From Comamonadaceae bacterium (lineage in GTDB: Bacteria; Pseudomonadota; Gammaproteobacteria; Burkholderiales; Burkholderiaceae_C): DNA of 64,000 bases. The notes beneath the pieces are model-generated. The model ran no database searches, had not been told where the DNA came from, and saw nothing but the letters and a program-made list of their open reading frames with translations. The stretch lies in assembly GCA_027485235.1 (NCBI GenBank), contig JAIXRJ010000017.1:62001-126000 (forward strand), read 5' to 3'. Positions 25,582 to 57,043 of this stretch are shown here, piece by piece. A program made the translations under genes and the position numbers. The number at the start of each line of letters is the position of its first letter. The first letter of the stretch is position 1.

Positions 25582-26517
25582 ATGACAAAACCCACGACCG
25601 GTGACTTCACCAAAACCGCAGGCTGGATGGACTGGTACACCGGTCCTGCCAAGCCCCGATTCCAATTGCCCGCAGGCGCGGTCGACGCGCACTGCCACGT
25701 GTTCGGCCCCGGTGCCGAGTTTCCCTATGCACCCGAGCGCAAATACACACCCTGCGACGCTTCCAAGCACCAGCTGTACGCGTTGCGGGACCACCTGGGC
25801 TTTGCCCGCAACGTGGTGGTGCAAGCCACTTGCCATGGCGCTGACAACCGCGCCATGGTCGATGCCTTGGTCAACTCCGGCGGCAAGGCCCGTGGCGTGG
25901 CCACCGTCAAACGCAGCGTGACCGACCAGGAAATTCAAGCCATGCACGACGCCGGTGTGCGTGGTGTGCGCTTCAATTTCGTCAAGCGCCTGGTGGACTT
26001 CACACCCAAGGACGAGTTGCTGGAAATCGCCAGCCGCATCGCCCAATGGGGCTGGCATGTGGTCATCTATTTTGAAGCCGTGGACTTGCCCGAGCTGTGG
26101 GACTTTTTCACCGCACTGCCCACCACCGTGGTGGTGGACCACATGGGCCGCCCCGATGTCTCGTTGCCGGTGGATGGGCCGCAGTTCGCGCTGTTCCAGA
26201 AGTTCATGCGCGAACACCAGAACGTGTGGAGCAAAGTGTCTTGCCCTGAGCGTTTGTCCGTCACGGGCCCCAAGGCACTCAACGGCGAGCAGAACGCTTA
26301 CCAGGACGTGATCCCGTTTGCCCAGCGCATCGTGCAGGAGTTCCCCGATCGCGTGCTCTGGGGTACCGACTGGCCCCACCCCAACTTGAAGGACCACATG
26401 CCCGACGATGGCTTGTTGGTGGACTTCATCCCGCACATCGCGCCGACTGCCGAGTTACAACAGAAACTGCTGGTGGACAACCCGATGCGCTTGTATTGGC
26501 CTGAGGAGTCAAACTGA
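25582..26517 (+). CDS. ligI: 2-Pyrone-4,6-dicarboxylate hydrolase
   Basis: LigI opens the lactone PDC to 4-oxalomesaconate. The 311-residue amidohydrolase shows H37 and H39 (VDAHCHVFGPG), the PDC-binding ATVKRSVTD segment, DHMGRPD and the barrel-end aspartate in WGTDWPHPNLKDHMPDDG. Its TGA shares one base with the ligA ATG (TGATG). Confidence 0.92.
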   Translation: MTKPTTGDFTKTAGWMDWYTGPAKPRFQLPAGAVDAHCHVFGPGAEFPYAPERKYTPCDASKHQLYALRDHLGFARNVVVQATCHGADNRAMVDALVNSGGKARGVATVKRSVTDQEIQAMHDAGVRGVRFNFVKRLVDFTPKDELLEIASRIAQWGWHVVIYFEAVDLPELWDFFTALPTTVVVDHMGRPDVSLPVDGPQFALFQKFMREHQNVWSKVSCPERLSVTGPKALNGEQNAYQDVIPFAQRIVQEFPDRVLWGTDWPHPNLKDHMPDDGLLVDFIPHIAPTAELQQKLLVDNPMRLYWPEESN

Positions 26518-26954
26518 TGGCACTCGACAAACCTTACACCGATGTGCCCGGCACGATCATCTTTGACGCCGAGCAATCGCGCAAAGGCTACTGGCTGAAC
26601 CAGTTTTGCATGTCGCTCATGAAGGCCGGGAACCGTGAAAAGTTCAAAGCCGACGAGCGGGCTTACTTGGACGAGTGGCCCATGAGCGAAGAGCAAAAGC
26701 AGGCCGTGCTGGCGCGTGACCTGAACTGGTGCATGCGCACCGGCGGCAATATTTATTTCCTCGCCAAAATTGGCGCGACCGACGGCAAGAGCTTCCAGCA
26801 AATGGCCGGCTCCATGACCGGCATGACCGAAGAGGAATACCGCAACATGATGATCGCCGGCGGCCGCAGCGTGGAAGGCAACCGTTACATCGGCGAAAAC
26901 GGCAGCGCCCAAGCCCAGAACCAACCGCAAGGCGCAGCCGGCAAGAAACCTTGA
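26517..26954 (+). CDS. ligA: Protocatechuate 4,5-dioxygenase, alpha subunit
   Basis: The small subunit of the ring-cleaving extradiol dioxygenase forms part of the active-site lid. The 145-residue protein has the LigA segments DVPGTIIFDAEQSRKGYWLN, DLNWCMRTGGNIYFLAKIGA and GSMTGMTEEEYRNMMIAGGR. The alanine- and glutamine-rich tail after residue 125 is not conserved. It is followed by ligB after 36 bases containing a small hairpin. Confidence 0.94.
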   Translation: MALDKPYTDVPGTIIFDAEQSRKGYWLNQFCMSLMKAGNREKFKADERAYLDEWPMSEEQKQAVLARDLNWCMRTGGNIYFLAKIGATDGKSFQQMAGSMTGMTEEEYRNMMIAGGRSVEGNRYIGENGSAQAQNQPQGAAGKKP

Positions 26955-27869
<915 letters not shown>

Positions 27870-27883
27870 ACATCGGAGAGAAC

Positions 27884-28843
27884 ATGAGCAAAACCATCAA
27901 AGTCGCCCTCGCTGGCGCAGGTGCCTTCGGCATCAAACACCTGGACGGCATTCAAAACATCGACGGCGTGGAAGTCGTCTCCTTGATCGGCCGCGAGTTC
28001 GCCAAGACCCAAGAGGTCGCCAACAAGTACGGCATTGGCCATGTCACCACCGACCTGAACGACTCGCTGGCCCTCCAAGAGGTGGACGCCGTGATTCTGT
28101 GCACCCCCACCCAGATGCACGCCAGCCAAACGCTGGCTTGCCTGAAGGCCGGCAAGCATGTGCAGGTGGAAATTCCGCTGTGCGATGTGTACAAGGAAGG
28201 CCAAGAAGTCCTGCGCGTCCAAAAGGAAACCGGTCTGGTGGCCATGGTGGGCCACACCCGCCGTTTCAACCCCAGCCATCAGTGGGTCAACCACAAGATC
28301 AAGGCCGGTGAGTTCAACATCCAGCAAATGGATGTGCAGACCTACTTTTTCCGCCGCACCAACATGAACGCGCTGGGCCAGGCCCGCAGCTGGACCGACC
28401 ACCTGCTGTGGCACCACTCGGCCCATACCGTGGACCTGTTCGCCTACCAGTGCGGCAGCCCGATTGTCAAAGCCAATGCGGTGCAAGGCCCGATCCACCC
28501 GGGTTTGGGCATTGCCATGGACATGAGCATCCAGCTGCAGGCGGCCAACGGTGCGATCTGCACGCTGAGCTTGAGCTTCAACAACGACGGCCCGCTGGGC
28601 ACTTACTTCCGCTACATCGGCGACACCGGCACCTACTTGGCCCGCTACGACGACCTGTTCACCGGCAAGGAAGAAAAGATCGACGTGTCCCAAGTGGCGG
28701 TGTCGATGAACGGCATTGAGCTGCAGGACCGGGAGTTCTTCGCGGCGATCCGCGAAGGCCGTGAACCCAACAGCGCGATCGCCCAAGTGTTGCCTTGCTA
28801 CCAGGTCTTGCACGATCTGGAACAACAATTGACCACCGGATGA
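27884..28843 (+). CDS. ligC: 4-Carboxy-2-hydroxymuconate-6-semialdehyde dehydrogenase
   Basis: This Gfo/Idh/MocA-fold, NADP-dependent enzyme oxidises the hemiacetal of the ring-cleavage product to 2-pyrone-4,6-dicarboxylate. The 319-residue protein has the nucleotide motif GAGAFG (residues 11-16), and VGHTRRFNPSHQWVN and SWTDHLLWHHSAHTVDLFAYQ, both typical of LigC. GGAGAG precedes the ATG. Its stop overlaps the transporter gene as ATGA. Confidence 0.92.
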   Translation: MSKTIKVALAGAGAFGIKHLDGIQNIDGVEVVSLIGREFAKTQEVANKYGIGHVTTDLNDSLALQEVDAVILCTPTQMHASQTLACLKAGKHVQVEIPLCDVYKEGQEVLRVQKETGLVAMVGHTRRFNPSHQWVNHKIKAGEFNIQQMDVQTYFFRRTNMNALGQARSWTDHLLWHHSAHTVDLFAYQCGSPIVKANAVQGPIHPGLGIAMDMSIQLQAANGAICTLSLSFNNDGPLGTYFRYIGDTGTYLARYDDLFTGKEEKIDVSQVAVSMNGIELQDREFFAAIREGREPNSAIAQVLPCYQVLHDLEQQLTTG

Positions 28844-30071: not shown

Positions 30072-30905
30072 TCAATCGTCCCAGCCGAACAAGCGCCGGG
30101 GGGTGTCCCACAAGACGGCTCGGCGGTCGGTCGCATCGGGCAGCCAATCCCTGACCAAGGCCCGCAGCGGGCCGTAGTCGGTGCGGGCCGGTGCCCGCAA
30201 AAACGGCCAGTCCGAGGCCCAGACCAGTGCCTGCGGCGTGAAGGCTTTGATCAAGGCATGCACATAAGGCAGGGCATCGGCATGGGGAAAGGGCCGGGCC
30301 GCAAACTTGGCGCAGCCAGAGAGCTTGACGCCAGCGCGGCCCGTGTCTGCCCAATCCAGCAAGGTTTGAAACCCGGCTTGCTGCAGTCCCGCAGCGGCGT
30401 TGGGACGACCGCAGTGGTCAAACAAAACCTGGACACCACTGTCTTTCAGCAAAGCGTTCAAGGCCACCAGTTGATCACCTTCCACCTGCACTTGCGCCCA
30501 CATGTCCAAATCACGCAGGCGCTGCAAAAGGGGTCCGGTGTCGGCATAAAAATCGGTGCCCAGCAGCGCGGCATTGAAGGCCACCCCCACCACACCTGCA
30601 GCTCGCAGGTCTTGCAATTCGGTCAGGCTGGCGTCGTTCTTGACCACGGCGATGCCCTTGTAACGCCCGTGGCCTTGCGCCAAAGTGTCCAGCAAACACC
30701 GGTTGTCCAGCCCATAACCCGAGTTGGGGCCAACCACCAGGGCGTGCCGAACACCGTGCACGTTCAGCACTTCGTCGAGCAGGGTTGGGGTGCCGGTCTC
30801 AGCTGGCGAGGGCACGTACCCCGCATCTGGCGCATAGGCGAAGCGCAGCGGGTCGAAGACATGCACGTGGCAGTCGACGGCAAGTTCATCAGAGGTCATG
30901 GTCAT
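30072..30905 (-). CDS. Amidohydrolase-2 family protein (PDC hydrolase-like, COG3618 type)
   Basis: A 277-residue metal-dependent hydrolase related to LigI. H13 and H15 are in VDCHVHVFDP, then VLFDHCGRPNAA and the terminal-strand aspartate in LVWASDWPFLRAP. The start at 30905 (MTMTSDEL) follows the family N terminus; ATG 30899 is an alternative. It is divergent from and close to aroE. A lactonase role on a pyrone- or muconolactone-like compound is plausible; it may overlap with LigI or serve another branch. Confidence 0.82.
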   Translation of the reverse strand: MTMTSDELAVDCHVHVFDPLRFAYAPDAGYVPSPAETGTPTLLDEVLNVHGVRHALVVGPNSGYGLDNRCLLDTLAQGHGRYKGIAVVKNDASLTELQDLRAAGVVGVAFNAALLGTDFYADTGPLLQRLRDLDMWAQVQVEGDQLVALNALLKDSGVQVLFDHCGRPNAAAGLQQAGFQTLLDWADTGRAGVKLSGCAKFAARPFPHADALPYVHALIKAFTPQALVWASDWPFLRAPARTDYGPLRALVRDWLPDATDRRAVLWDTPRRLFGWDD

Positions 30906-30996
30906 GTTCGATCGACAAAATGGCATTGTCATGGGTTTGGCCCTCGTTTCGGTCTTTGGCGGCGATAAGATGAGCGGATTGATTGCTGGACACCCC

Positions 30997-31830
30997 ATGA
31001 CAGACCGTTACGCCGTGATCGGCAACCCCATCGAGCAGAGCAAGTCGCCGCTCATCCACACCGCTTTTGCCCAGGTGACCGGGCAGGACATGGACTACGC
31101 CCGGGTGCTTGGCCCTTTGGGCGAGTTTGCCCGGACGGTGGACGCTTTTCGCGCAACCGGCGGGCGGGGCATGAATGTGACCGCGCCTTTCAAGCTGGAT
31201 GCTTTTGCCTATGCGACCGATCTGGCCCCCAGCGCGCAAATGGCCGGAGCGGTGAATGCCCTGAAGTTTGAGGGCAACAAGGTTTACGCAGAGAACTTTG
31301 ACGGCGTGGGTTTGGTGCGCGATGTGGTGCACAACTTGGCCTTCCCACTGCAAGGAAAGCGTGTTTTGATTTTGGGTGCGGGAGGCGCGACGCGCGGGGC
31401 TTTGTTGCCGATGCTGGCGCAAGGTCCTGCCGAGGTGCTGATCGTTAACCGCACCGTGGCCAAGGCCGAGGAGCTGGCCGCTTTGGCTCACCAGCACCAA
31501 AGCGGCCTGCTGCCGGTGCGGGGCGTGGCTTATGCCGATGTGGGTGCGCAGTCGTTTGATGTGGTGTTCAACGCCACGTCGGCCAGCCTCACGGGCGAGC
31601 TGCCGCCGCTGCCGGCCAGAGTGTTTGCGCCGGGCTGCTTGGCTTACGAGCTGGCCTATGGCAAAGGTTTGACACCATTCCTCAAGCTGGCGCAGCAGGC
31701 GGGCGTGACGCGCCTGGCCGATGGTGTGGGCATGCTGGCCGAGCAAGCGGCCGAGGCCTTTGCCTGGTGGCGTGGGGTCAGGCCCGATACCCAGGCCGTG
31801 ATCGCGCAGCTGACGGTGCCGCTGAACTGA
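30997..31830 (+). CDS. aroE: Shikimate dehydrogenase (AroE), canonical-type active site
   Basis: NADP-dependent interconversion of 3-dehydroshikimate and shikimate. The 277-residue protein keeps the substrate motif SKS (residues 15-17, EQSKSPLIH), the catalytic pair K66 (NVTAPFK) and D102 (NFDGVGL), and nucleotide site GAGGATRG. The ATG at 30997 is chosen over a longer in-frame extension that would overlap the divergent gene. Of the three AroE proteins here, this best matches the biosynthetic form. A decayed copy of its 3' end lies at 32323. Confidence 0.88.
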   Translation: MTDRYAVIGNPIEQSKSPLIHTAFAQVTGQDMDYARVLGPLGEFARTVDAFRATGGRGMNVTAPFKLDAFAYATDLAPSAQMAGAVNALKFEGNKVYAENFDGVGLVRDVVHNLAFPLQGKRVLILGAGGATRGALLPMLAQGPAEVLIVNRTVAKAEELAALAHQHQSGLLPVRGVAYADVGAQSFDVVFNATSASLTGELPPLPARVFAPGCLAYELAYGKGLTPFLKLAQQAGVTRLADGVGMLAEQAAEAFAWWRGVRPDTQAVIAQLTVPLN

Positions 31831-38883: not shown

Positions 38884-38899
38884 GGTCAATCCGCTGGGG

Positions 38900-40791: not shown

Positions 40792-40833
40792 GGGGCTTTG
40801 CAGCGGGCCAGGGGGTTTCAATGCTGCAAGTAT

Positions 40834-40853: not shown

Positions 40854-40896
40854 TCAAAAATGGAATCTAATTCTGTTTTTATGTATCATCGCAACC

Positions 40897-41703: not shown

Positions 41704-41704
41704 G

Positions 41705-44748: not shown

Positions 44749-44764
44749 TCGACTTTTTGAAAAC

Positions 44765-44795
44765 AAAGCGGACTCCTGTGGGGTCCGCTTTTTTT
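44765..44795 (+). terminator. Rho-independent terminator or attenuator after the LivJ-like gene
   Basis: AGCGGACTCC-TGT-GGGGTCCGCT pairs over ten positions including one wobble, then seven T residues. It lies between the binding-protein gene and its permease genes, so it should let the receptor be made in excess with partial read-through. Confidence 0.8.
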
Positions 44796-44838
44796 CAGGC
44801 CCAGCGGGAGGTCCAGCCCGTGTTTTCGGAGTTCACCC

Positions 44839-45714: not shown

Positions 45715-46694
45715 AAAAGCTCAACCTGTTGTTGGCCGTGCTCGCTCTGGCCGCGCTGATTGTGGTGCCCAACTTCCTCAAGAACTACGGCATCCACATC
45801 TTCACGACCTGGTTGGTGTTCATCATCGCCACCATGGGCTTGAATTTGACGGTGGGTTATGCCGGTCAAAAGTCTTTGGGCCATGCGGCCTTTTTTGGCA
45901 TCGGTGCTTACACCGTGGCCATCTTTTTGAAGGCAGGCCTGAGTTTTTGGTTGGGTTTGCCCGTGGCGGCCCTGTTCTGTTTCTTGGTCGGGCTGGCGCT
46001 GGGCTTTCCGGCCTTGCGGGTGCAGACCATCTATCTGGCCTTTGCCACCCTGGGCTTCAATACCGCCTTGTGGTTGGTGATGCGCAACGAAGAGTGGCTC
46101 ACCGGCGGTACCTTCGGCATCAACAACATCGCACGCCCCAGCCTGGGCGGCATCAGCTTTGAAGGCAACCTCGCCTATTACTACTTGGTGTTGGGTTTCA
46201 CCATCGTGCTGGCACTGCTGCTCTGGGGCTTGCTCCGATCACCTTGGGGCAAGGCTTTCACGGCGCTGCGTGACAACGCCATCCGTGCCGAGAGCCTGGG
46301 CATCGACACCCGCGGCTACACGCTGCTGAGCTTTGCCATCGGGGCCGTTTATGCCGGTGTCGCCGGTGGTCTGTATGCCTCACAAGTGCAGTTCATTGAC
46401 CCGGCCCTGTTCACCGTTGGCGCGTCCATCATGATGTACCTGATGGTGGTGGTCGGTGGTCCGGGCTACTTTTTAGGCCCCGTGCTGGGTTCGGCGGTGG
46501 GCGTGGTCTTGCCCGAGTGGCTGCGTTTTGCCCAAGCCTGGTATTTGTTTGTCTTTGGCACAGCGGTTGTGGTGCTCATGATCTGGCTGCCCGATGGCTT
46601 GCTCAGCATTCCTGACCGCATCAAGGCCCGTCGCCAATCGCGTGCAGCCTCTGCCGACCGCGCTGCTGCTGCTGGTCAAGGAGCTAAAACATGA
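45711..46694 (+). CDS. livM: Branched-chain-type ABC transporter permease, LivM-like
   Basis: A 327-residue membrane protein with NLTVGYAGQKSLGHAAFFGIGAY and the coupling segment GKAFTALRDNAIRAESLGID, both standard for LivM. The last 25 residues are basic and alanine-rich. It overlaps livG by ATGA. Confidence 0.88.
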   Translation: MKKLNLLLAVLALAALIVVPNFLKNYGIHIFTTWLVFIIATMGLNLTVGYAGQKSLGHAAFFGIGAYTVAIFLKAGLSFWLGLPVAALFCFLVGLALGFPALRVQTIYLAFATLGFNTALWLVMRNEEWLTGGTFGINNIARPSLGGISFEGNLAYYYLVLGFTIVLALLLWGLLRSPWGKAFTALRDNAIRAESLGIDTRGYTLLSFAIGAVYAGVAGGLYASQVQFIDPALFTVGASIMMYLMVVVGGPGYFLGPVLGSAVGVVLPEWLRFAQAWYLFVFGTAVVVLMIWLPDGLLSIPDRIKARRQSRAASADRAAAAGQGAKT

Positions 46695-47437
46695 CTCAGC
46701 CCGTCCTCAAAGTCACCAACATGAAAAAGGCTTATGGCGCGATTCAGGCCGTGGGCGGTGTCTCATTTGAAGTGTATCCAGGCGAAATCTTTGGCGTGAT
46801 CGGCCCCAATGGTTCGGGCAAGACCACTTTGTTCAACAGCATGCTCGGCCAGATCGCCCCCGATGAGGGCCGAATCGAACTCAATGGTCAGGACGTGACC
46901 CAACTCGGTCCTTTGGCCTTGAACCGCCTTGGCGTGGGTCGCACCTTTCAAACGCTGCAGGTGTTCGGCAAGATGACCGTGCGCGACAACCTGATCGTGG
47001 CCGCGCAAGAGCACCAAGGCAGCATGTTCAGCCGCATGTTCGCACCCAGCGAGTCCGGGCTCGGTGACAAGGCGGACGCCCTGATTGACCAGTTCCGCAT
47101 TCGCCATGTGGCCGACAAGAAAGCCGGTGAGTTGAGCTATGGCCAACAAAAATTGGTGGACATTGCCATGGCTTTCATGAGCGAGCCCGATCTGGTCTTG
47201 CTCGATGAGCCTTGCGCCGGGGTGAACCCGGCTTTGGTGGGTGGCATCAGCACATTGCTCAAGGCCTTGAACCGCACGCGCAAGGGCAGTTTCGTGGTGA
47301 TTGAGCACAACATGGACTTTGTGATGGACGTTTGCCACCGCATCATGGTCATGGTGGAAGGCCAGGTTTTGGCCATTGGCACACCCCATGAAATCCGTGC
47401 CAACAAGCAGGTGCTCGACGCCTATTTGGGGAACTGA
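46691..47437 (+). CDS. livG: Branched-chain-type ABC transporter ATPase, LivG-like
   Basis: A 248-residue ATPase: Walker A GPNGSGKTT (about 38-46), the LivG insertion with GVGRTFQTLQVFGKMTVRDN, signature LSYGQQKL, Walker B LVLLDEPCAGVNP and switch histidine in VIEHNMDFV. It forms a pair with LivF. Confidence 0.91.
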   Translation: MTQPVLKVTNMKKAYGAIQAVGGVSFEVYPGEIFGVIGPNGSGKTTLFNSMLGQIAPDEGRIELNGQDVTQLGPLALNRLGVGRTFQTLQVFGKMTVRDNLIVAAQEHQGSMFSRMFAPSESGLGDKADALIDQFRIRHVADKKAGELSYGQQKLVDIAMAFMSEPDLVLLDEPCAGVNPALVGGISTLLKALNRTRKGSFVVIEHNMDFVMDVCHRIMVMVEGQVLAIGTPHEIRANKQVLDAYLGN

Positions 47438-47438
47438 A

Positions 47439-48200
47439 ATGACAGCGCACACCACATCAGACACCTGCATTGAATTCGACAATGTGATTGCAGGCTACAA
47501 GGATTTCATGATCCTGAACAACTTGTCTTTCAAAGTGCCCAGAGGTTCGATCACCCTGCTCATCGGCCCCAACGGCGCTGGCAAGTCCACCGTGCTCAAG
47601 ACCTTGTTTGGCTTGCTCAAGCCCCGTCAGGGCAAGGTGTACCTCAACGGCAAGGACATCACGGGCGCTTCGCAAAAAGACTTGCTGGCCGCTGGCATCG
47701 CTTTTGTGCCGCAAGGCCGCAACCTGTTTGGTCAGTTGAGTGTTTATGAGAACCTGGAGTTGGGCGGGATCACGCTGGGCATGAAGACCACGCACGAACG
47801 CATTCCACAAATTCTGGACTTCTTTCCCCGCGTCAAAGAGCGCATGAATTCGCGTGCTTCGGCCTTATCGGGGGGGGAACAAAAGCAACTCGAAATCGGC
47901 CGCGCCTTGTTGTTGCGCCCCAAGGTCTTGTTGATCGATGAGCCCTCTATTGGACTGTCGCCGATTGTGGTGCAAGACGTTTTCAAATTGTTGCGCAAAC
48001 TGGCCGATCAAGGCACCACGGTGCTGATGGTCGAGCAAAACGTCAAGAGTGCGCTCAAGTACTCCGATACTGCCATTGCCTTGGAGTCCGGTCGTCTGGT
48101 GCTCTACAAATCGGCCGCAGAAATTCTTGCAGATCCTCAGATGGAGCGGCTGTTTCTGGGCGGGGCGCACACCACCACGGCGGCGATCAGCATGCCTTGA
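47439..48200 (+). CDS. livF: Branched-chain-type ABC transporter ATPase, LivF-like
   Basis: A 253-residue ATPase: Walker A GPNGAGKST, VPQGRNLFGQLSVYENLELGG (LivF-specific), signature LSGGEQKQ, Walker B VLLIDEPSIGLSP and VEQNVKSAL. The ATG at 47439 follows the livG stop by one base. It is the last gene of the plus-strand transport set. Confidence 0.9.
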   Translation: MTAHTTSDTCIEFDNVIAGYKDFMILNNLSFKVPRGSITLLIGPNGAGKSTVLKTLFGLLKPRQGKVYLNGKDITGASQKDLLAAGIAFVPQGRNLFGQLSVYENLELGGITLGMKTTHERIPQILDFFPRVKERMNSRASALSGGEQKQLEIGRALLLRPKVLLIDEPSIGLSPIVVQDVFKLLRKLADQGTTVLMVEQNVKSALKYSDTAIALESGRLVLYKSAAEILADPQMERLFLGGAHTTTAAISMP

Positions 48201-48257: not shown

Positions 48258-49031
48258 TCAAAGCAGTGGCCGAAGGCTGTGGGCGGCTTCTTGCAGCACT
48301 TGCAAAACCCTTTTGAGCGCGTGGTCGGTTTCTTCCCGGTTGATCGGCATGGTGATGCTGATGGCCCCAAGAACCTTGTTGTGTCGGTCCATCAGTGGCA
48401 CGGCGATGCCCCTGAAGTTGAGTTCCAGTTGCTGCTCGGAAACAGCCCATCCTTGGCGTCTGAAGCTCACCAGGGTCTCACGCAGTTCGGTCTTGCTGGA
48501 CAGGGTGAAAGAGGTGAAAGCCTGCAAGTCATAGGTCTGCATCCAGTCATCGATGAACGCCTCGTCGCTGTAAGCCAGCATGACCATGCCGGCTGCGGTG
48601 ACCTGTGTGGGGACCCGGGTTCCTGTCATGTACCCGCTGGCCATGTGCCGTTGCAGACCGCTGCGGGCAATGAAAACGGTGTCTCCGCCATCCAGAACGC
48701 CCAGGTATGCGATTTCTTCGGTGCCCGCTGTGATGCGTTGCAAAAAGGGCTGAACCAGGCGTGGCAAACGTGCCGACTCCAGGTAAGCGTGACCGAGCCG
48801 CAGGATACGCGGCATCAGCCAGTACAACTTGCCGTCTGTGGCCGCGTAGCCCAGATGTACCAGGGTTTTCAGGTAGCGGCGAGCGGCCGTGCGGGTCATC
48901 CCGCAGCGCTCTCCCATTTCGGTGGCCGTGAGGCGCGGGTGCCCGGCGTCGAAGGCTTCAATGATGTGCAGACCTTTTTGAAGTCCCGCAATCCAGTCGC
49001 GAGGATCCAGTGCTTCGTGATCGGTTGACAT
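48258..49031 (-). CDS. IclR-family transcriptional regulator (PcaR/PobR-like)
   Basis: A 257-residue protein with helix-turn-helix LTATEMGERCGMTRTAARRYLKTLVHLGYA (about 34-63) and the effector-domain segment GTRVPTQVTAAGMVMLAYSDE. The PcaR-type 'AARRYL' helix is typical of regulators of aromatic catabolism. The ATG at 49031 is used. It follows a dehydrogenase gene after 6 bases on the same strand, so both may be one transcript. The target is probably the adjacent liv or quinate genes. Confidence 0.88.
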   Translation of the reverse strand: MSTDHEALDPRDWIAGLQKGLHIIEAFDAGHPRLTATEMGERCGMTRTAARRYLKTLVHLGYAATDGKLYWLMPRILRLGHAYLESARLPRLVQPFLQRITAGTEEIAYLGVLDGGDTVFIARSGLQRHMASGYMTGTRVPTQVTAAGMVMLAYSDEAFIDDWMQTYDLQAFTSFTLSSKTELRETLVSFRRQGWAVSEQQLELNFRGIAVPLMDRHNKVLGAISITMPINREETDHALKRVLQVLQEAAHSLRPLL

Positions 49032-49037
49032 CAATCT

Positions 49038-50016: not shown

Positions 50017-50050
50017 TATACTCGCCAAATGAACCAAATGGTACATTCTG
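50017..50050 (+). promoter_or_regulatory. tetR promoter with candidate operator overlapping the start codon
   Basis: TATACT (50017-50022) is a good -10 only seven bases before the ATG at 50029, though no good -35 is seen. The motif AACCAAATGGTACATTCTG (50032-50050) overlaps the first codons and matches 15 of 19 bases of a motif at 50776 in front of the TRAP operon. A leaderless or very short-leader transcript under autoregulation is suggested. Confidence 0.45.
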
Positions 50051-50721
50051 CAAAAACCACCCCGAATGACTTGGAAGCTGCCAAGGAGACCGGCCGCACC
50101 AACGACCCAGCCCGCACCATGGCCGAGATTCTGGCGGTGGCCACCCACGAGTTTGCCGACAAGGGTTTGACGGGCGCGCGCATCGACGAGATCGCCGCCG
50201 CCACGCGCACCAGCAAGCGCATGATCTATTACTACTTCGGCAGCAAAGACGGCCTGTATTTGGCGGTCCTCGAAGAGGCCTACCGCCGCATGCGGGCCAT
50301 CGAGTCGGACTTGCACTTGGACGATTTGCCGCCTATGGAGGCCCTGCAAAAGCTGGTGACGTTCACCTATGACCACCACCGCGACAACGAAGACTTCATC
50401 CGGCTGGTGATGAATGAGAACATCCAGCGTGGCGACTATTTGCGTCAGAGCAAAAACATCCAGTCGCTCAACTCCAATGCCATCGAATCGGTGCAGTCCG
50501 TGTATGCCCGTGGGGTTGTGCAGGGGGTGTTCAGGCCGGGGCTGGATCCGGTGGACATCCATTCGGCGATTTCAGCCTTCACCTTTTTCAATGTGTCCAA
50601 CCGCCACACTTTCGGACTGATCTTCAAGGACAAAGCCAGCCAGGGCAAGGCCGAGACGCTCAAGCGCGAGCAGGTGGTTGAGCTGGTTTTGCGCTTTGTC
50701 AGTCATTCCATTTCGGCATAA
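50029..50721 (+). CDS. TetR-family regulator of the quinate/shikimate-like operon
   Basis: A 230-residue regulator with helix-turn-helix FADKGLTGARIDEIAAATRTSKRMIYYYFGSKDGLYLAVLEEAYRRM around residues 43-90 and a helical C-terminal ligand domain. It precedes a TRAP transporter and the dehydroquinase/dehydrogenase/dehydratase genes on the same strand. A repeated 19-base motif at its own start and in the TRAP promoter supports control of that operon. An ATG at codon 4 (50038) is an alternative start. Confidence 0.88.
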   Translation: MNQMVHSAKTTPNDLEAAKETGRTNDPARTMAEILAVATHEFADKGLTGARIDEIAAATRTSKRMIYYYFGSKDGLYLAVLEEAYRRMRAIESDLHLDDLPPMEALQKLVTFTYDHHRDNEDFIRLVMNENIQRGDYLRQSKNIQSLNSNAIESVQSVYARGVVQGVFRPGLDPVDIHSAISAFTFFNVSNRHTFGLIFKDKASQGKAETLKREQVVELVLRFVSHSISA

Positions 50722-50775
50722 CTGATAGGTGGCGGGTGAATTTAAAAGTCAGGGTAAGTACCAGTCTTTAAAAAC

Positions 50776-50796
50776 TAACCAGTTCGTACATTATGA
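50776..50796 (+). promoter_or_regulatory. TRAP/quinate operon promoter with overlapping TetR motif
   Basis: AACCAGTTCGTACATTATG (50776-50794) repeats the motif at 50032. It overlaps a -10-like TATGAT at 50791-50796, 23 bases before the small-permease ATG. Occupation by a repressor here would block transcription. Confidence 0.5.
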
Positions 50797-50818
50797 TCGT
50801 CTCGTCTTTGGAATTTGC

Positions 50819-51358
50819 ATGTTGAAAAAAATCATCGAGGGTTACTGCCAAGTCCTCAACCTCATCACGGCGATCGCGCTGGCGATCATGGTCGTCCTCG
50901 TGTTCGGCAATGTGCTCATGCGTTACGGTTTCAACTCGGGCATCACCATGTCAGAAGAGTTGTCGCGCTGGTTGTTTGTGTGGCTGACCTTTTTGGGGGC
51001 CATCGTGGCCATGAAGGACGGCGCGCATCTGGGATCGGACACGCTGGTTTCGCGTTTGCCTTTGGCCGGTAAGAAGCTGTTCATGCTCATTGGCCATGTC
51101 TTGATGCTGTTCGTGTGCTGGCTGCTGTTCAAAGGTTCTTACGAACAAGCGCTCATCAATCTGGAAACGACCAGCGCCGTCATGGAGGCCTCCATGGCTA
51201 TTTTTTACGGTTGCGGCATGGTCACTGCGGTGTCGATCGCGGTGATTTTGCTCAACAAACTGTGGCGTTTGGCCACGGGTGATTTGTCTGAAAACGAATT
51301 GGTGGGGGTGCGCGAGTCGGAAGAAGAACCGATCGATGTGCCGGCGCCTTTGAAATAA
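50819..51358 (+). CDS. TRAP transporter small permease (DctQ family), second system
   Basis: A 179-residue membrane protein with four hydrophobic segments and the DctQ pattern VFGNVLMRYGFNSGITMSEELSRWLFVWLTFLG. The ATG at 50819 is chosen because upstream in-frame codons run through the promoter motif. The acidic C-terminal tail (SENELVGVRESEEEPIDVP) is cytoplasmic. It is the first gene of the transport and catabolic set. Confidence 0.9.
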   Translation: MLKKIIEGYCQVLNLITAIALAIMVVLVFGNVLMRYGFNSGITMSEELSRWLFVWLTFLGAIVAMKDGAHLGSDTLVSRLPLAGKKLFMLIGHVLMLFVCWLLFKGSYEQALINLETTSAVMEASMAIFYGCGMVTAVSIAVILLNKLWRLATGDLSENELVGVRESEEEPIDVPAPLK

Positions 51359-51373
51359 GAAACACGAAAAGCC

Positions 51374-52651
51374 ATGACCATCGCCGTTTTCCTGGGTTCT
51401 TTGCTCGCTGCCATGGCGCTGGGCATCCCGATTGCCTTCTCTTTGCTCTTGTGTGGCGTGGCCCTGATGTGGCACATGAACATGTTCGATGCGCAGATCC
51501 TGGCGCAAAACCTGATCGAAGGCTCCAACAGCTTTCCCTTGTTGGCCGTGCCGTTCTTCATGCTGGCCGGTGAAATCATGAACACGGGGGGCTTGTCGCG
51601 CCGAATTGTGGACTTCGCCATGGCGCTGGTGGGGCACATCCGGGGTGGTTTGGGTTATGTGACCATCGTGGCCGCTTGCTTGTTGTCCGCCCTGTCGGGC
51701 TCTGCTGTGGCCGATGCCGCGGCATTGACCGCCTTGCTTTTGCCCATGATGGTCAAAGCAGGCCATGACAAAGCGCGCAGCGCAGGGTTGATCGCCTCGT
51801 GCGGTGTGATCGGCCCGATCATTCCCCCTTCGATTGGTTTTGTGATCTTTGGTGTGGCCGCCAACGTGTCGATCAGCAAATTGTTTTTGGCGGGCATTTT
51901 CCCGGGCATCGTGCTGAGCGCGGGCTTGTGGATCACCTGGGGCTGGTTGACACGCAAAGAAAAGCTGACGCCGCCGCCACGCAAGCCTTTGCCCGAAATT
52001 TTGGCTGCATTGCGCCGCGCCACTTGGGCCTTGATGCTGCCGGTGATCATTTTGGTGGGCTTGCGCATGGGGGTCTTCACCCCCACCGAGGCCGCTGTGG
52101 TGGCTGCCGTATATGCCCTGTTTGTGGCGGGTGTGATTTACGGTGAATTGAGTTGGAAGCAACTTTTTAGCGTGTTTCAGGCGGCGGCCAAGACCACCTC
52201 GGTGGTGATGTTCCTGGTGGCTGCGGCCATGGTGTCGGCTTGGTTGATCACGGTGGCCAATTTGCCACAACAGGTCATCACTTTGCTGGAGCCTTTGCTG
52301 AGCAGCCCCACTTTGCTGATGTTTGCCATCATGGTCTTGTGCATGATCGTGGGCACGGCCATGGACATGACGCCGACCATTTTGATTCTGACGCCTGTGC
52401 TGATGCCTTTGGTGACGGCTGCAGGCATTGACCCGGTTTATTTTGGCGTCATGTTCATCATCAACAATTCCATCGGTTTGGTCACGCCCCCTGTGGGCAC
52501 GGTGCTCAACGTGGTGGCGGGTGTGGGCCGCATGCGCATGGACGATGTGACGCGTGGCGTCCTGCCTTTCATGGCGGTTCAGTTTGTGGTGATGTTCCTG
52601 ATGGTGCTTTTCCCGCAAATCGTGATGGTGCCAGCGCGCTGGTTCTATTGA
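51374..52651 (+). CDS. TRAP transporter large permease (DctM family), second system
   Basis: A 425-residue protein with about 12 membrane segments; LGIPIAFSLLLCGVALM, SALSGSAVADAAALTALLLPMM and NNSIGLVTPPVGTVLNVVAGVG are standard DctM elements. It starts 15 bases after the small permease. With dehydroquinase and dehydratase genes downstream, quinate, shikimate or dehydroshikimate uptake is the best guess. Confidence 0.93.
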   Translation: MTIAVFLGSLLAAMALGIPIAFSLLLCGVALMWHMNMFDAQILAQNLIEGSNSFPLLAVPFFMLAGEIMNTGGLSRRIVDFAMALVGHIRGGLGYVTIVAACLLSALSGSAVADAAALTALLLPMMVKAGHDKARSAGLIASCGVIGPIIPPSIGFVIFGVAANVSISKLFLAGIFPGIVLSAGLWITWGWLTRKEKLTPPPRKPLPEILAALRRATWALMLPVIILVGLRMGVFTPTEAAVVAAVYALFVAGVIYGELSWKQLFSVFQAAAKTTSVVMFLVAAAMVSAWLITVANLPQQVITLLEPLLSSPTLLMFAIMVLCMIVGTAMDMTPTILILTPVLMPLVTAAGIDPVYFGVMFIINNSIGLVTPPVGTVLNVVAGVGRMRMDDVTRGVLPFMAVQFVVMFLMVLFPQIVMVPARWFY

Positions 52652-52659
52652 TTCCTGGC

Positions 52660-52692
52660 CTTGTTGTCTGACCGGGTACGCCAGACAACAAG
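52660..52692 (+). other. Intercistronic hairpin between TRAP permease and binding-protein genes
   Basis: CTTGTTGTCTG and CAGACAACAAG form a perfect 11-bp stem with an 11-base loop, nine bases after the permease stop. A run of ten T residues follows 24 bases later, just before the next ribosome site. It could stabilise the 3' end of the permease mRNA or the 5' end of the receptor mRNA. Confidence 0.65.
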
Positions 52693-52737
52693 CCTCCTGA
52701 TGGCAAGCGTACGACCTTTTTTTTTTGGAGACAACCC

Positions 52738-53769
52738 ATGAAACGTGTGTTCATCAAGACCTTGATCGCGACAGTCGCCTTGGCCGCTGTGGGCGTGGCT
52801 TCGGCCCAAGACAAAACCATCAAATTCGCCAACCAGAATGCGGCGGGTCACCCCATCATCTTGGGCATGGAAAAGTTCAAGGAAATCGTCGAGAAAAACT
52901 CTGGCGGCAAGATCAAGGTCAATGTGTTCCCGGGTGGTGCCTTGGGCAGTGACCAGGCCAACGTGTCAGCCATTCAAGGGGGTTCGCTCGAAATGGCGTC
53001 CATGAACTCCGGCATCTTTGCCGCACAGGTCAAAGAGTTCGCTATTTTCGATTTCCCCTTCATGTTCGGCACGGGCAAAGAAGCCGACGCTGCGGTGGAT
53101 GGCCCCTTTGGCAAAAAGCTGCACGCCAAGTTGGATGAAAAAGGCCTGATCGGCCTGGCTTATTACGAACTGGGTTTTCGCAACATCACCAACAGCAAGC
53201 GCGCCATCAACAAAGTGGAAGACCTGGAAGGCCTGAAGCTGCGCGTCATCCCCAACCCGATCAACGTGGACTGGGTCAAGGCCTTGGGCGCCAACCCCAC
53301 ACCGCTGCCTTTCCCAGAGTTGTATGCGGCTTTGGACCAAAAAGCCGTGGACGGCCAGGAAAACCCGGTGGCCACCATCAACGGTGCCAAGCTGTACGAA
53401 GTGCAAAAGCACCTGGCTTTGACCGGCCACCAGTACAACCCCCAGTCGGTTGTCATCAGCAAGAAGTTCTGGGAAAAGCTGTCGGCTGCCGAGAAAAAAA
53501 TTGTGGCCGATGCCGCCACCGAATCGGCCAAATTCCAGCGTGAAAAAGCCCGTGCTCTGGAAGCCAGCATTCTGGACAACTTGAAGAAAAATGGCATGCA
53601 AGTGACCCAGTTGCCCGAAGCCGAAATGGCCAAGCTGCGCGACAAGATGCGCCCTGTGACCGCCAAGTACGGCGTGACCGTGGGCCAGGACCTGGTCAAG
53701 GAACTGCAAGGCGAAATCGAGAAGGCGCGCACCGCGGCAGCAGCGCCCGCCAAGAAGTCGGGCAAGTAA
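52738..53769 (+). CDS. TRAP transporter solute-binding protein (DctP family), second system
   Basis: A 343-residue periplasmic receptor with a Sec signal (residues 1-22, ending VGVASAQ) and DctP features GHPIILGMEKFKEIVEKNSGGKIKV, the carboxylate-binding arginine in LKLRVIPNPINVDW and LPFPELYAALDQKAVDGQENP. GGAGAC precedes the ATG. Gene order (Q, M, P) is the reverse of the aldarate TRAP system at 2493-5300, so the two systems are not recent copies. The tail is alanine- and lysine-rich. Confidence 0.91.
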   Translation: MKRVFIKTLIATVALAAVGVASAQDKTIKFANQNAAGHPIILGMEKFKEIVEKNSGGKIKVNVFPGGALGSDQANVSAIQGGSLEMASMNSGIFAAQVKEFAIFDFPFMFGTGKEADAAVDGPFGKKLHAKLDEKGLIGLAYYELGFRNITNSKRAINKVEDLEGLKLRVIPNPINVDWVKALGANPTPLPFPELYAALDQKAVDGQENPVATINGAKLYEVQKHLALTGHQYNPQSVVISKKFWEKLSAAEKKIVADAATESAKFQREKARALEASILDNLKKNGMQVTQLPEAEMAKLRDKMRPVTAKYGVTVGQDLVKELQGEIEKARTAAAAPAKKSGK

Positions 53770-53782
53770 TTGTCTGGTGTGA

Positions 53783-53810
53783 AGACCTTGCCGCTGGTGT
53801 GGCGAGGTCT
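53783..53810 (+). other. Hairpin between the TRAP receptor gene and aroQ
   Basis: AGACCTTGCC and GGCGAGGTCT pair over ten positions with one wobble and an 8-base loop. CGTTTGTTG follows, a weak T-rich tract. It may partly terminate or stabilise receptor mRNA. Confidence 0.5.
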
Positions 53811-53835
53811 CGTTTGTTGAATGAAAGGAATGGCC

Positions 53836-54276
53836 ATGAAAGTCTTGATGTTGCACGGGGTGAACCACAACATGTTTGGCAAACGCGACCCCCTGCAATA
53901 CGGCACCATCACGCTCGATGAGATCAATGCCAGTTTGCACAAATTGGGTCAAGAGCTGGGTGCCCAGGTCGAGTGCTACCAAACCAACCACGAAGGCGAG
54001 ATGTGTGAGCGCATTCATCAGGCCTTCTTTGACAAGGTCGACGCCGTGTTGATCAACGCCGGTGCCTGGACCCATTACAGCTATGCCATTCGCGATGCCT
54101 TGGCCGTGCTCACTTGCCCCATCGTGGAGTTGCACATGTCCAACATCCATGCGCGCGAAGAATTCCGTCACAAGTCGGTGTTTGCCGAAATCGTCAAAGG
54201 CCAGATCTGTGGCTTTGGCGCTGACAGCTATTTGCTGGCACTGCGTGCCGGCGTGTCGGCTGCTCAATCTGTCTGA
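53836..54276 (+). CDS. aroQ: 3-Dehydroquinate dehydratase, type II
   Basis: It interconverts 3-dehydroquinate and 3-dehydroshikimate. The 146-residue protein has the type II motifs with R17 and Y22 (GKRDPLQYG), N74 (LINAGAWTH), H100 and H105 (ELHMSNIHAREEFRHKS) and R111. The usual GPNLNLLG near the start is altered to GVNHNMFG. The ATG at 53836 has AAAGGA six bases upstream; earlier in-frame ATGs overlap that site. Its position after a TRAP transporter points to a catabolic role in quinate use. Confidence 0.9.
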   Translation: MKVLMLHGVNHNMFGKRDPLQYGTITLDEINASLHKLGQELGAQVECYQTNHEGEMCERIHQAFFDKVDAVLINAGAWTHYSYAIRDALAVLTCPIVELHMSNIHAREEFRHKSVFAEIVKGQICGFGADSYLLALRAGVSAAQSV

Positions 54277-54296
54277 ATGCCCCCAACATTGTCCAC

Positions 54297-55136
54297 ATGA
54301 TCAACGGCAACACCGAGCTCATCGCCCACATCGGCTACCCCACGCACACCTTCAAGTCGCCGATGATTTACAACCCGTACTTCGAAGAGGCGGGCATCAA
54401 CGCGGTGGTGGTGCCCATGGGCTGCACGGGTGAAAATTACCCGACTTTCCTGCGGTCCGTGTTCACACTCGAGAACATCCGGGGCGCTTTGATCACCATG
54501 CCGCACAAGGTCAGCACCGTGGACTTGCTCGACGAAGTAACTGCCGCAGTGCGCGTGGCCGGAGCTTGCAACGCGGTCAAGCGCTTGCCCGATGGGCGTT
54601 TGGTGGGGGACATGTTTGACGGCGCCGGTTTTGTGCGCGGCGTTCAGCGCAAAGGGTTCGCGCTGACCGGCAAGCGGGTCTTGGTTGTGGGCACAGGCGG
54701 TGTGGGCAGTGCGATCGCGGCCTCATTGGCGGGTGCGGGCATTGCCGCCATCAGTTTGTTCGATGTGAACCCTGCCAGTTGCCATGCTTTGGCCCAGCGG
54801 CTGAAAGAAAACCACCCCCAGATCGAGGTGCGCACCGGATCAAACGATCCAGCAGACCACGACTTGGTGGTCAACGCCACGCCCATGGGCATGAGCGACG
54901 GCGATCCTTTGCCCCTGGATGTCTCACGCTTGTCCTCCGACACGTTTGTCGGAGAAGTGGTGATGAAGCGCGAGACCACCGCATTTTTGGCCGCTGCGCA
55001 AGCGCGTGGCTGCCGCACGCAAGTGGGCACCGACATGCTGTTCGAACAAATTCCTGCTTACCTCGAATATTTTGCTTTACCGACCACCACCGCTGATGTC
55101 TTGCGCCGAGTGGCCCAGCTGAGCGATGGCGCATGA
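54297..55136 (+). CDS. Shikimate/quinate dehydrogenase-like protein (atypical AroE)
   Basis: A 279-residue AroE-fold enzyme with catalytic K71 (LITMPHKVST) and D108 (DMFDGAGFV) and nucleotide site GTGGVGSAIAAS. The first serine of the SKS substrate motif is replaced (TFKS, residues 18-21), as in the paralogue at 40897. In this operon it most likely oxidises shikimate or quinate to the dehydro-acid. Twenty bases separate it from aroQ, and no good ribosome site is seen before the ATG. Confidence 0.86.
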   Translation: MINGNTELIAHIGYPTHTFKSPMIYNPYFEEAGINAVVVPMGCTGENYPTFLRSVFTLENIRGALITMPHKVSTVDLLDEVTAAVRVAGACNAVKRLPDGRLVGDMFDGAGFVRGVQRKGFALTGKRVLVVGTGGVGSAIAASLAGAGIAAISLFDVNPASCHALAQRLKENHPQIEVRTGSNDPADHDLVVNATPMGMSDGDPLPLDVSRLSSDTFVGEVVMKRETTAFLAAAQARGCRTQVGTDMLFEQIPAYLEYFALPTTTADVLRRVAQLSDGA

Positions 55137-55139
55137 TGC

Positions 55140-55211
55140 TTGCAGGAGCCCCACCCGGTGGGCGATGGGCGTGGCACACGCCCTCAAAACCATCGCCCAA
55201 AGGCTTGGGCT
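55140..55211. repeat. REP-like element with nested stems
   Basis: It begins TTGCAGGAGCC and ends GGGCTTCTACA, whose arms pair at about nine of eleven positions. Inside, TGGGCGATGG (55159-55168) and CCATCGCCCA (55190-55199) form a perfect 10-bp stem, with GCGTG/CACGC inside it, and GCCCAA/TTGGGC beside it. The TTGCAGGAG head recurs at 21746 and the GGCGATGG stem at 61128. It lies wholly between two operon genes. Confidence 0.65.
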
Positions 55212-55238
55212 TCTACAAACCACAAGGAGAGCCTTGAG

Positions 55239-56126
55239 ATGAACCTGAACCCCATTGACCGCGAAGCTGTACCGGAAATGCCTAACCGTTTGGGCATTGC
55301 GGGCATTGAATTCATCGAATACGCCACCAGCCGTCCACAAGCGCTGGGACAGGTGCTCGAGAACATGGGTTTTCGCCCGGTGGCTCGTCACCGTTCGCGT
55401 GAGGTCACACTTTATCGCCAAGGCGGCATGAATTTGGTGGTCAACGCCAGCCCTGATGATGCCCGCGTCAGTGGCACGGTGGATGGTCAGCCTGTGATTT
55501 CGGCGGTGGCTTTTCGGGTGCAGGACGCTTTGAAGGCGCACACCCGCAGCCTGGACCTGGGCGCCTGGAGCGTGGGCAGCCACGCGCAGGCGATGGAACT
55601 GCATATTCCGGGCATCCACGGACCGGGGGGCAGCCGTTTTTATTTTGTGGACCGCTGGCAAGAGTTTTCGATCTACGACATCGATTTCAAGCCCATTCCC
55701 ACGGTGGACCTGAACCCACCTGCATTGGCGGGCATGAGCTACTTTGGCGTGGTGCAGTACATCGGTGCAGCTCGGAGCGCCGATTGGCAGACCTATTTCG
55801 AACACATGTTCGACTTCACCGCGATGCCCGACGAACAACGTTTTGGCATCTTGCCCAAAGGCAAGTTGATGAAAAGCCCTTGCGGCAGTTTTTTGTGGCA
55901 GCTGATCGAGCCCGAGCCCTGGATGGATGCCGACGACAGCCCCGAATGCCTGCAAAGGATTGGCTTTGGCGTGCCCGATGTGGGGCAAGCGGTGGCCGCA
56001 CTCAAGGCCCGCGGCGTCGAATTTGTCGAGTCCACCCGTTTGCACCCCGAGGATCGGGGCGCATTGACCCGCGCGACCTTGGGCTCGGTCGCTTTTGAAC
56101 TCGTCCACCAGCGAGCACCTTTATGA
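55239..56126 (+). CDS. 4-Hydroxyphenylpyruvate dioxygenase-like (double VOC) protein; counterpart of the C-terminal QuiC1 domain
   Basis: A 295-residue two-domain vicinal-oxygen-chelate protein: FIEYATSRPQALGQVLENMGF in the first half and GIHGPGGSRFYFVDRW and AVAALKARGVEFVEST in the second. In pseudomonad QuiC1 such a region is fused behind the dehydroshikimate dehydratase barrel; here it is a separate gene placed before the barrel gene, with ATGA overlap. By eye, two of the three HPPD iron ligands are replaced (SYFGV for DH, LQRIGF for QHI) while the glutamate in FELVH remains, so dioxygenase activity is doubtful. Confidence 0.78.
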   Translation: MNLNPIDREAVPEMPNRLGIAGIEFIEYATSRPQALGQVLENMGFRPVARHRSREVTLYRQGGMNLVVNASPDDARVSGTVDGQPVISAVAFRVQDALKAHTRSLDLGAWSVGSHAQAMELHIPGIHGPGGSRFYFVDRWQEFSIYDIDFKPIPTVDLNPPALAGMSYFGVVQYIGAARSADWQTYFEHMFDFTAMPDEQRFGILPKGKLMKSPCGSFLWQLIEPEPWMDADDSPECLQRIGFGVPDVGQAVAALKARGVEFVESTRLHPEDRGALTRATLGSVAFELVHQRAPL

Positions 56127-57043
56127 ACTTGCTCGACGGTTACGGCATGGACACCATCACCATGGCGGGCTCCCTGGAGTCCAAGCTGGCCGCCATGCAA
56201 GGGGCTGGATTTTCGCAAGTGATGCTCATGGCCCGCGACTTGGTCACGCACCCCGGTGGCGTGACGGCAGCGGTCGAGGCTGTGCGTCAAAGCGGCATGA
56301 GGCCGACTGGCTTTCAGGTGCTGCGCGACTTCGAGGGCTTGTCGGGCCACCTGCACAGCTACAAGTTGGACATCGCGAAAGCCATGCTGGAGATGTGCGC
56401 AGCCACCGGCAGCCAAGTTTTGTTGGCCTGTTCGTCCACTTCACGCCACGCCACGCAAGATCTGGACGCCATTGCCGCGGACTTGAAAAAGCTCGCCATG
56501 CTGGCGCTGCCTTTGGGGATCAAGATCGCTTACGAAGCACTGTCTTGGGGTCGCACCGTCAACGAATTCACCACCAGCTGGGACGTGGTCTGCCGCGCTG
56601 ACTGCCCCAATTTGGGCTTGGGCATTGATTCTTTCCATATCTTTGCCGCCAACACACCTTTGGATGCGATCGAGGAGCTCGATCCGTCCAAGGTCTTTTT
56701 GGTGCAACTGTCAGACTTCATGTGGCAAGAAACCCCCACTTTTGAAGAGCGTATGACCACGGCCCGGACATTTCGGGTGTTCCCGGGCGAGGGCGTGCAC
56801 AGCGAGCAGTTGGCCGATCTGGTGTTGCGCCTGGACCGCATGGGTTACCGGGGCGACTACAGTTTTGAGGTGTTCAACGACGACTACCAACAGTTGCCAT
56901 TGGAGACTGTGGCTGGGCGTGCCCGCGAAAGCGCGATATGGCTCCACCAAGACGTGCTGCACAAAGCCACACCACTGCCGCAGTGGGCGTCGCAGCGGGA
57001 CGGACCGTCCGGCCCACTCGCCAAGAGTCGGTCCATGGCCTGA
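56123..57043 (+). CDS. quiC: 3-Dehydroshikimate dehydratase (xylose-isomerase-like barrel), stand-alone
   Basis: It would dehydrate 3-dehydroshikimate to protocatechuate, linking quinate/shikimate to the lig pathway. The 306-residue barrel carries a metal tetrad E138 (KIAYEALSWGR), D169 (LGIDSFHI), Q195 (FLVQLSDF) and E249 (YSFEVFND). The segments LSWGRTVNEFTTSWDVV and FRVFPGEGVHSEQLADLV resemble the N-terminal domain of QuiC1. Its start overlaps the VOC gene's stop. The family is about 280-300 residues without the second domain, matching the size seen. Confidence 0.84.
   Translation: MNLLDGYGMDTITMAGSLESKLAAMQGAGFSQVMLMARDLVTHPGGVTAAVEAVRQSGMRPTGFQVLRDFEGLSGHLHSYKLDIAKAMLEMCAATGSQVLLACSSTSRHATQDLDAIAADLKKLAMLALPLGIKIAYEALSWGRTVNEFTTSWDVVCRADCPNLGLGIDSFHIFAANTPLDAIEELDPSKVFLVQLSDFMWQETPTFEERMTTARTFRVFPGEGVHSEQLADLVLRLDRMGYRGDYSFEVFNDDYQQLPLETVAGRARESAIWLHQDVLHKATPLPQWASQRDGPSGPLAKSRSMA

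Follow-up and report, generated by a model that had tools for sequence, protein, structure and literature searches.

A separately encoded HPPD-fold VOC protein accompanies a predicted 3-dehydroshikimate dehydratase barrel in a shikimate/quinate-type operon of Burkholderiales

Introduction

Dehydroshikimate dehydratases (DSDs) are divided into four classes (PMC7442255, PMC9324987). QuiC1 of Pseudomonas putida (PDB 5hmq) and QsuB of Corynebacterium glutamicum each form one chain, in which a barrel comes first and is followed by an HPPD-like part, and the role of this part in the bacterial enzymes is unsettled, as far as the sections of the two papers at hand go. The same sections describe a separate HPPD-like partner in none of the four classes. 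A separate VOC/barrel pair is also absent, among the matches listed, from the titles and abstract openings surveyed in the open-licence literature.

Here we describe an operon at positions 50029-57043 of a 64,000-nucleotide stretch of a Comamonadaceae bacterium (assembly GCA_027485235.1, contig JAIXRJ010000017.1, positions 62,001 to 126,000; hereafter the window), in which the barrel and an HPPD-like VOC protein are encoded by two genes, in the order opposite to that of QuiC1 and QsuB. The separate genes let the barrel and the HPPD-like part be deleted, purified and assayed singly. Moreover, lineages exist in which the barrel has lost catalytic residues and the VOC protein keeps its conserved residues, which bears on the role of the HPPD-like part.

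Results

The VOC and barrel genes overlap and are strictly linked

The genes for a TetR regulator, a TRAP transporter, a type II 3-dehydroquinate dehydratase (DHQase), an AroE-like dehydrogenase, the VOC protein and the barrel all lie on the plus strand, in one direction as the initial annotation had stated. The last two are arranged as follows:

55239..56126, plus strand: VOC protein, HPPD-fold relative (start ATG 55239)
56123..56126, plus strand: ATGA, the 4-nucleotide (nt) overlap of VOC stop and barrel start
56123..57043, plus strand: stand-alone xylose-isomerase-like barrel, predicted 3-dehydroshikimate dehydratase

An AAGGAG motif precedes ATG 55239, and the longest VOC open frame, which starts at TTG 55140, is probably too long. 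The earlier description of separate, overlapping genes with VOC before barrel is borne out by the ATGA overlap. The contrast that it drew with the single chain of QuiC1 (PDB 5hmq) also holds, as the barrel matches the N-terminal part of QuiC1 and the VOC protein matches its C-terminal part.

The VOC protein is present in 47 of 150 genomes of the family and in 133 of 399 in a larger draw; a draw of 349 genomes from the order contained 17 with it, and one of 398 from the phylum contained 5, all five of them members of the order. We parsed 146 VOC-bearing genomes, comprising 133 of the family and 13 others of the order, with three barrels cut by contig ends. In every one of them (146/146) a barrel lies downstream of the VOC gene on the same strand within 1.2 kb, and this closeness argues that the arrangement is not due to chance. 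An AroE-type gene stands between the two in G354, G156, G373 and G324, which belong to other families. A close barrel without a VOC match occurs in three of 399 genomes (G1047, G1098 and G995); these are not counted as VOC losses, because two of the barrels start no more than ~110 bases away from the edge of a contig and the remaining one is fragmentary. Altogether, the VOC/barrel pairing is common in related bacteria, and the VOC protein may do separate work.

VOC-less barrels were also located at 7637-8506 of L090 (from G020), where the barrel is flanked by AroE-like genes and retains its active site, and at G1012:C36:20560-21396. Two metagenome genomes show broken frames, either real or assembly errors: one at the VOC/barrel junction (L165, 3733-5443), the other inside the barrel, with the second part running into an aldo/keto-reductase-like frame (L173, 4560-6370).

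The barrel is most likely a 3-dehydroshikimate dehydratase

Among solved structures, the best sequence match of the barrel is the N-terminal domain of QuiC1, with 132 bits. Against the model NF042435, the barrel matches the N-terminal part with 152 bits and the VOC protein scores 77 bits, both below the curated cut-off of 1200, which applies to the whole two-domain protein. The predicted structure of the barrel (predicted local distance difference test score, pLDDT, of 86) also finds QuiC1 (5hmq) as its best solved fold match, with a Z of 35.8 and a root-mean-square deviation of 2.2 over 280 aligned residues. AsbF was found by name neither among the three barrel matches to solved structures at E <= 0.001 nor among the 50 fold matches listed.

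The barrel retains nine of the ten active-site residues listed for QuiC1 and QsuB in the accessible part of PMC7442255 (R64, L97, E134, L136, D165, H168, Q191, R210 and E239). The tenth, S206, is Ala in the window barrel and likewise in 8 of 14 fused QuiCs. In addition, a fused QuiC occupies the same place in a like TRAP-dehydrogenase (AroE-type) operon of Ensifer, and fused QuiCs in TRAP-AroE-type operons also occur in members of the family, such as L092 and L095. The residues, the context and this interchange with fused QuiC support the dehydratase function first assigned to the barrel, which is most likely a stand-alone metal-dependent 3-dehydroshikimate dehydratase.

The VOC protein has lost two of the three iron ligands of HPPD

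With VOC identities of as much as 95% to named records of Limnohabitans, the window belongs to a Limnohabitans genome. The VOC protein shares ~40% identity with HPPD in its N-terminal part, and its whole fold is HPPD-like according to a structure model with a pLDDT of 52, used for the fold only. Its bit scores place it nearer to HPPD (128-129) than to the QuiC1 C-domain (73). In all 143 VOC sequences compared, some of which represent the same species from two collections, the first iron His of HPPD is replaced by Gly and the second by Arg, and the Glu is kept. By contrast, the His-His-Glu site is complete in 29 of 29 HPPDs, and the QuiC C-domains have the first His in 14/14, the second in 12/14 and the Glu in 13/14. 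Residues that are near-invariant in the VOC protein and differ in HPPD include F169, G170, Q173, G208, Q221, P225 and R240, at ligand positions and next to them. Moreover, nothing in the VOC protein corresponds to a C-terminal segment of HPPD that includes a catalytic Gln and the closing helix. To judge from these residues and the modelled fold, the VOC protein is distinct from HPPD but shares its fold, and its site has been rebuilt and lacks two iron ligands.

Identity with HPPD itself was ruled out by the lost iron ligands and by a TIGR01263 score of 75.8 bits against a cut-off of 277; a different locus of the genome (C26) encodes an HPPD with all three ligands. Both annotated plasmid copies of the VOC protein, in records of Vitreoscilla and Massilia, are labelled HPPD, which points to a wrong annotation given that it has only one of the three iron ligands left.

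A tree of 51 VOC proteins, 24 HPPDs and 14 QuiC C-domains resolved separate clades, with support of 100/100, 97/86 and 100/100. In a second tree with a Streptomyces HPPD outgroup, the VOC protein joins HPPD (99/95), the VOC and QuiC C-domain clades have support of 100/100 and 100/97, and the HPPD clade itself is weak (85/46). The initial annotation had spoken of a split QuiC, a description that does not fit the three clades, the VOC scores nearer to HPPD, or the loss of two of three iron ligands that are mostly kept in QuiC C-domains. On the sequences sampled, the VOC protein is no detached QuiC domain of that clade. A recent split from the QuiC C-domain is unsupported by both trees; for the two as sisters, the approximately unbiased (AU) test gave p 0.38.

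The VOC signature persists beside barrels that lost catalytic residues

We scored seven core residues of the barrel, metal-site residues included (R64, E134, D165, H168, Q191, R210 and E239), in 143 genomes, the cut barrels of G985, G1023 and G074 being dropped. Two to five of the seven are changed in 11 of the 143, namely in G022 and G856; in G052, G874, G950 and G1018; in G899 and G1093 (Curvibacter); and in G017, G299 and G459. The barrel of Curvibacter L200, outside the set of 146, is also altered. Mapped on the VOC tree, the altered state requires six changes. All 11 altered pairs have open, full-length frames with gaps of -4 to 29 nt, and all 11 partners carry the Gly/Arg/Glu/Gln/Gln signature of the VOC protein, which is found in 145 of 146 genomes overall, G902 being the exception. 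The retention of signature and open frames after barrel loss suggests a VOC role beyond the catalysis of the barrel. In all 11 loci inspected that have an altered barrel, the pair also lies near at least one pathway-type gene (AroE-like, DHQase, shikimate-type MFS, TRAP or IclR); in L121, DctP is the sole such neighbour.

The ratio of nonsynonymous to synonymous substitution rates (dN/dS) was compared in a set that left out G017, G299 and G459. The altered barrels gave pairwise values of 0.36-0.56 in two genera (G052/G874/G950/G1018 and G022/G856), and in Curvibacter 0.09-0.13 among L199-L201 and 0.37-0.40 between these and L202/G1093, compared to 0.02-0.18 for the barrels of eight control pairs. 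The partner VOC proteins gave 0.03-0.13 in Curvibacter and 0.02-0.16 in the eight control pairs. The VOC value is lower than the barrel value in 12/12 comparisons within altered lineages versus 4/8 control pairs. Purifying selection still acts on both genes, and the Curvibacter VOC is held as tightly as the controls; in the two other genera both genes are relaxed, the barrel more.

These results bear on the suggestion of the initial annotation that the VOC partner is an independent subunit. The strict linkage fits a subunit; a mere helper of catalysis, however, would be expected to lose its conserved residues once the barrel is dead, whereas those of the VOC protein persist. In two genera with altered barrels it nevertheless evolves faster.

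A fused QuiC often coexists with altered barrels

A fused QuiC was found in 9 of 12 genomes with an altered barrel (including L200) versus 7 of 68 with an intact one. Among the 143 related genomes, altered barrels occur in 8 of 18 with a fused QuiC and in 3 of 125 without (Fisher p 1.7e-6). For 25 of the 146 genomes, the fused status comes solely from a scan of at most five candidates per genome; for genomes of the first draw that were outside the comparison of 12 and 68, it comes from a separate search. On eight independent pairs, a mean of 1.4 point in the expected direction and none in the opposite one (sign test, median p 1). The mean identity to a reference panel is 0.49 for the barrel and 0.59 for the VOC protein in altered pairs with a fused QuiC, and 0.70 and 0.62 in intact pairs without. 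No early relaxation of intact barrels was seen in genomes with a fused QuiC (Mann-Whitney p 0.84). The association looks like redundancy and is offered as a lead. As the cause of active-site loss, a fused QuiC was set aside, the trend being one-sided and far from significant on independent pairs. On a Massilia putida plasmid (L125), a fused QuiC lies ~5 kb from a split pair, the barrel of which retains the core residues.

The surrounding genes point to shikimate breakdown

Upstream of the pair, the operon contains the following features:

50029..50721, plus strand: TetR-type regulator (TetR_N and TetR_C_29)
50816..51358, plus strand: TRAP small permease DctQ (ATG 50816; GTG 50729 gives a longer call)
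51374..52651, plus strand: TRAP large permease DctM (best model YiaN, score under the cut-off of that model)
52738..53769, plus strand: TRAP solute-binding protein DctP
53783..53810, plus strand: hairpin of 12 pairs in the interval from dctP to the DHQase gene (matches the consensus only)
53821..54276, plus strand: type II 3-dehydroquinate dehydratase (TIGR01088, 182.3 bits, above the cut-off of 169.85)
54297..55136, plus strand: AroE-like shikimate/quinate dehydrogenase (nearest solved relative 4k28)

The AroE-like protein belongs to the AroE family by its Shikimate_dh_N score (58.8 bits, gathering score 27), and among the matches listed it reaches no AroE model cut-off. No type II copy other than the DHQase of the operon (53821-54276) was found in this assembly, and it may also serve aromatic biosynthesis; alternatively, a housekeeping copy may lie in a gap or be of type I, for which no search was made. 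This DHQase has no match in the L. radicicola operon region (L104). A promoter scan was uninformative (2 sites versus a mean of 1.8 in shuffles). Terminator-like sites number 25 versus 10.0, the hairpin above being the sole one placed on the feature list.

Further genes of the window that touch on the pathway are these:

25582..28843, plus strand: putative protocatechuate 4,5-cleavage block
25582-26517, plus strand: amidohydrolase of this block
26517-26954, plus strand: LigA of this block
26955-27869, plus strand: LigB of this block
27884-28843, plus strand: GFO/IDH/MocA dehydrogenase of this block
30898..31830, plus strand: second AroE, above the TIGR00507 cut-off
48258..49034, minus strand: IclR-type regulator upstream of the operon

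Read from the gene families, the natural pathway would run from shikimate, perhaps also from quinate via another dehydrogenase, through 3-dehydroshikimate and protocatechuate to ring opening. The shikimate/quinate-to-protocatechuate assignment made at the outset is backed by the residues, the context and the interchange with fused QuiC in a like operon. Quinate is less sure as a substrate than shikimate, since TIGR03074, the model for PQQ-type quinate dehydrogenase, matches nothing in this assembly (completeness 95.85%).

Neighbours were counted at 72 longer pair loci from crude gene calls, which recovered the VOC gene at 67 of these loci and the barrel gene at 62. On this basis, AroE-like genes of the P0003 type are found at 40 loci, DctM at 25, DHQase at 24, and LigA and LigB at 5 each. 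The window IclR belongs to a gene cluster present at 38 of the 72 loci, and the cluster representative has PcaR/PcaU/PobR as its best model, with 235.7 bits, under the cut-off of 284.75. A branched-chain-amino-acid-type ABC transporter (43618-48200) lies, like this regulator, just upstream of the operon. Its cluster accompanies the pair at 29 of the 72 loci, 22 of them without TRAP, so that the transporter may be exchangeable.

A second island (32465-43444) holds a CoA transferase, an acyl-CoA dehydrogenase, a barrel, FAD_binding_2 proteins, an IclR regulator and an AroE-like domain, and may serve an additional pathway for acids of the cyclohexane type. It includes another FAD_binding_2 protein in addition to the following:

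35598-36434, minus strand: another xylose-isomerase-like barrel
36448-38928, minus strand: FAD_binding_2 protein with a NIPSNAP end
40126-41703: frame of 525 amino acids with an AroE-like domain in its second half

Discussion

The explanation that we favour, with confidence about evenly divided for and against, is that the barrel is a dehydratase and the VOC protein a metal-free partner, which binds an acid of the pathway and the barrel and has a role beyond supporting catalysis. The TRAP system would take up a shikimate- or quinate-type acid; the AroE-like enzyme, by its family, would convert shikimate to 3-dehydroshikimate, and the type II DHQase would supply the latter from 3-dehydroquinate. 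The free-standing metal-dependent barrel would then form protocatechuate from 3-dehydroshikimate, and the LigAB-type enzymes of the same window would open the ring. With Gly and Arg apparently replacing two His of the iron site and the surrounding residues fixed, the VOC protein would act as a metal-free partner that binds both the barrel and an acid of the pathway. Seen directly are the anatomy, the linkage, the residues and the signature kept after barrel loss, and all activities, the complex and the ligand named here are inferred. The VOC protein is tied to the barrel and probably has its own role, whether it binds a ligand, senses one, keeps the barrel complexed or catalyses a new reaction. 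A wider proposal, doubtful at this stage, is a two-protein module of Burkholderiales in which the HPPD relative without a metal site is the constant part with its own role (sensor, carrier or new chemistry), and in which the barrel, having originated as a dehydratase, repeatedly became a partner without catalysis as the module persisted.

Several observations weigh against the favoured explanation. The tree of 51, 24 and 14 sequences came with a warning of long branches meeting, and the AU test does not reject the grouping of the VOC protein with the QuiC C-domain (p 0.38). Barrels at 44-45% identity stand without a VOC match in G020 and G1012, and in G902 a VOC gene with an in-frame stop lies beside an intact barrel. 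In addition, the structure model of the VOC protein is poor (pLDDT 52), and in two altered genera its dN/dS of 0.23-0.36 exceeds that of the controls (0.02-0.16). Together with the values of 0.36-0.56 for the altered barrels of these genera, the raised VOC ratio makes joint slow decay possible. The altered barrels might then be slowly dying genes, rendered useless by a fused QuiC or by pathway loss, with the VOC gene decaying more slowly. The faster evolution of altered barrels than of their VOC proteins, both by dN/dS and by identity to the reference panel, the reduced VOC constraint in the two genera, and the fused QuiC in 9/12 altered versus 7/68 intact genomes fit such decay. It is nevertheless on the unlikely side, as all 11 pairs have open, full-length frames with short gaps (-4 to 29 nt), dN/dS stays below 1 and falls to 0.09-0.13 among three Curvibacter, three altered genomes have no fused QuiC, and the link to fused QuiC is not significant on independent pairs.

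The VOC protein might alternatively be a structural subunit only, without a ligand or role of its own, like the C-domain role proposed for QuiC1 and QsuB in oligomer building and stability. The strict VOC/barrel linkage and the 4-nt overlap in the window agree with this, as do two findings in the available text of PMC7442255: QsuB is mostly octameric when complete and mostly monomeric when the C-domain is removed, and the QsuB C-domain showed no activity on protocatechuate. We consider a purely structural subunit unlikely, however, in view of the Gly/Arg/Glu/Gln signature that persists where barrel metal ligands are lost and of the position of the VOC protein outside the QuiC C-domain clade. 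If the VOC protein were instead an enzyme whose chemistry is novel for the HPPD fold, either without metal or with other ligands, and whose substrate is 3-dehydroshikimate, protocatechuate or a neighbouring intermediate, this would explain the near-invariant residues that distinguish it in and near the lost iron site and the retention of the VOC protein in quinate/shikimate surroundings even with an altered barrel. Such an enzyme is quite improbable, as only one of three HPPD metal ligands remains, the searches point to no substrate, and binding alone could account for the same conservation. As to the barrel, its fold is common to IolI and other sugar isomerases, and it falls short of the QuiC equivalog cut-off of 1200 bits for the whole two-domain protein, which would suit another isomerase or epimerase of the same fold. 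The identity of nine of ten active-site residues with QuiC1/QsuB, QuiC1 as the best match by both structure and sequence, and the operon context make that assignment very improbable.

Compared to QuiC1 and QsuB, the window barrel has the same fold, metal and substrate residues and pathway context, and in both cases it is accompanied by an HPPD-like protein. However, the VOC protein falls into a separate clade and lacks the two iron His and the C-terminal segment of HPPD. It resembles HPPD in its N-terminal part and whole fold, but differs in the absence of the His-His-Glu iron site, in a shorter C-terminus and in its operon. The bacterial AsbF and the fungal Qa-4, stand-alone DSDs in the classification given in the available part of PMC9324987, are single-domain barrels as is the barrel here. 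In that description, by which alone they are compared, no separate HPPD-like partner is given for either, and AsbF has an anabolic role, in petrobactin formation, whereas the barrel described here would belong to a catabolic pair with an HPPD relative encoded beside it.

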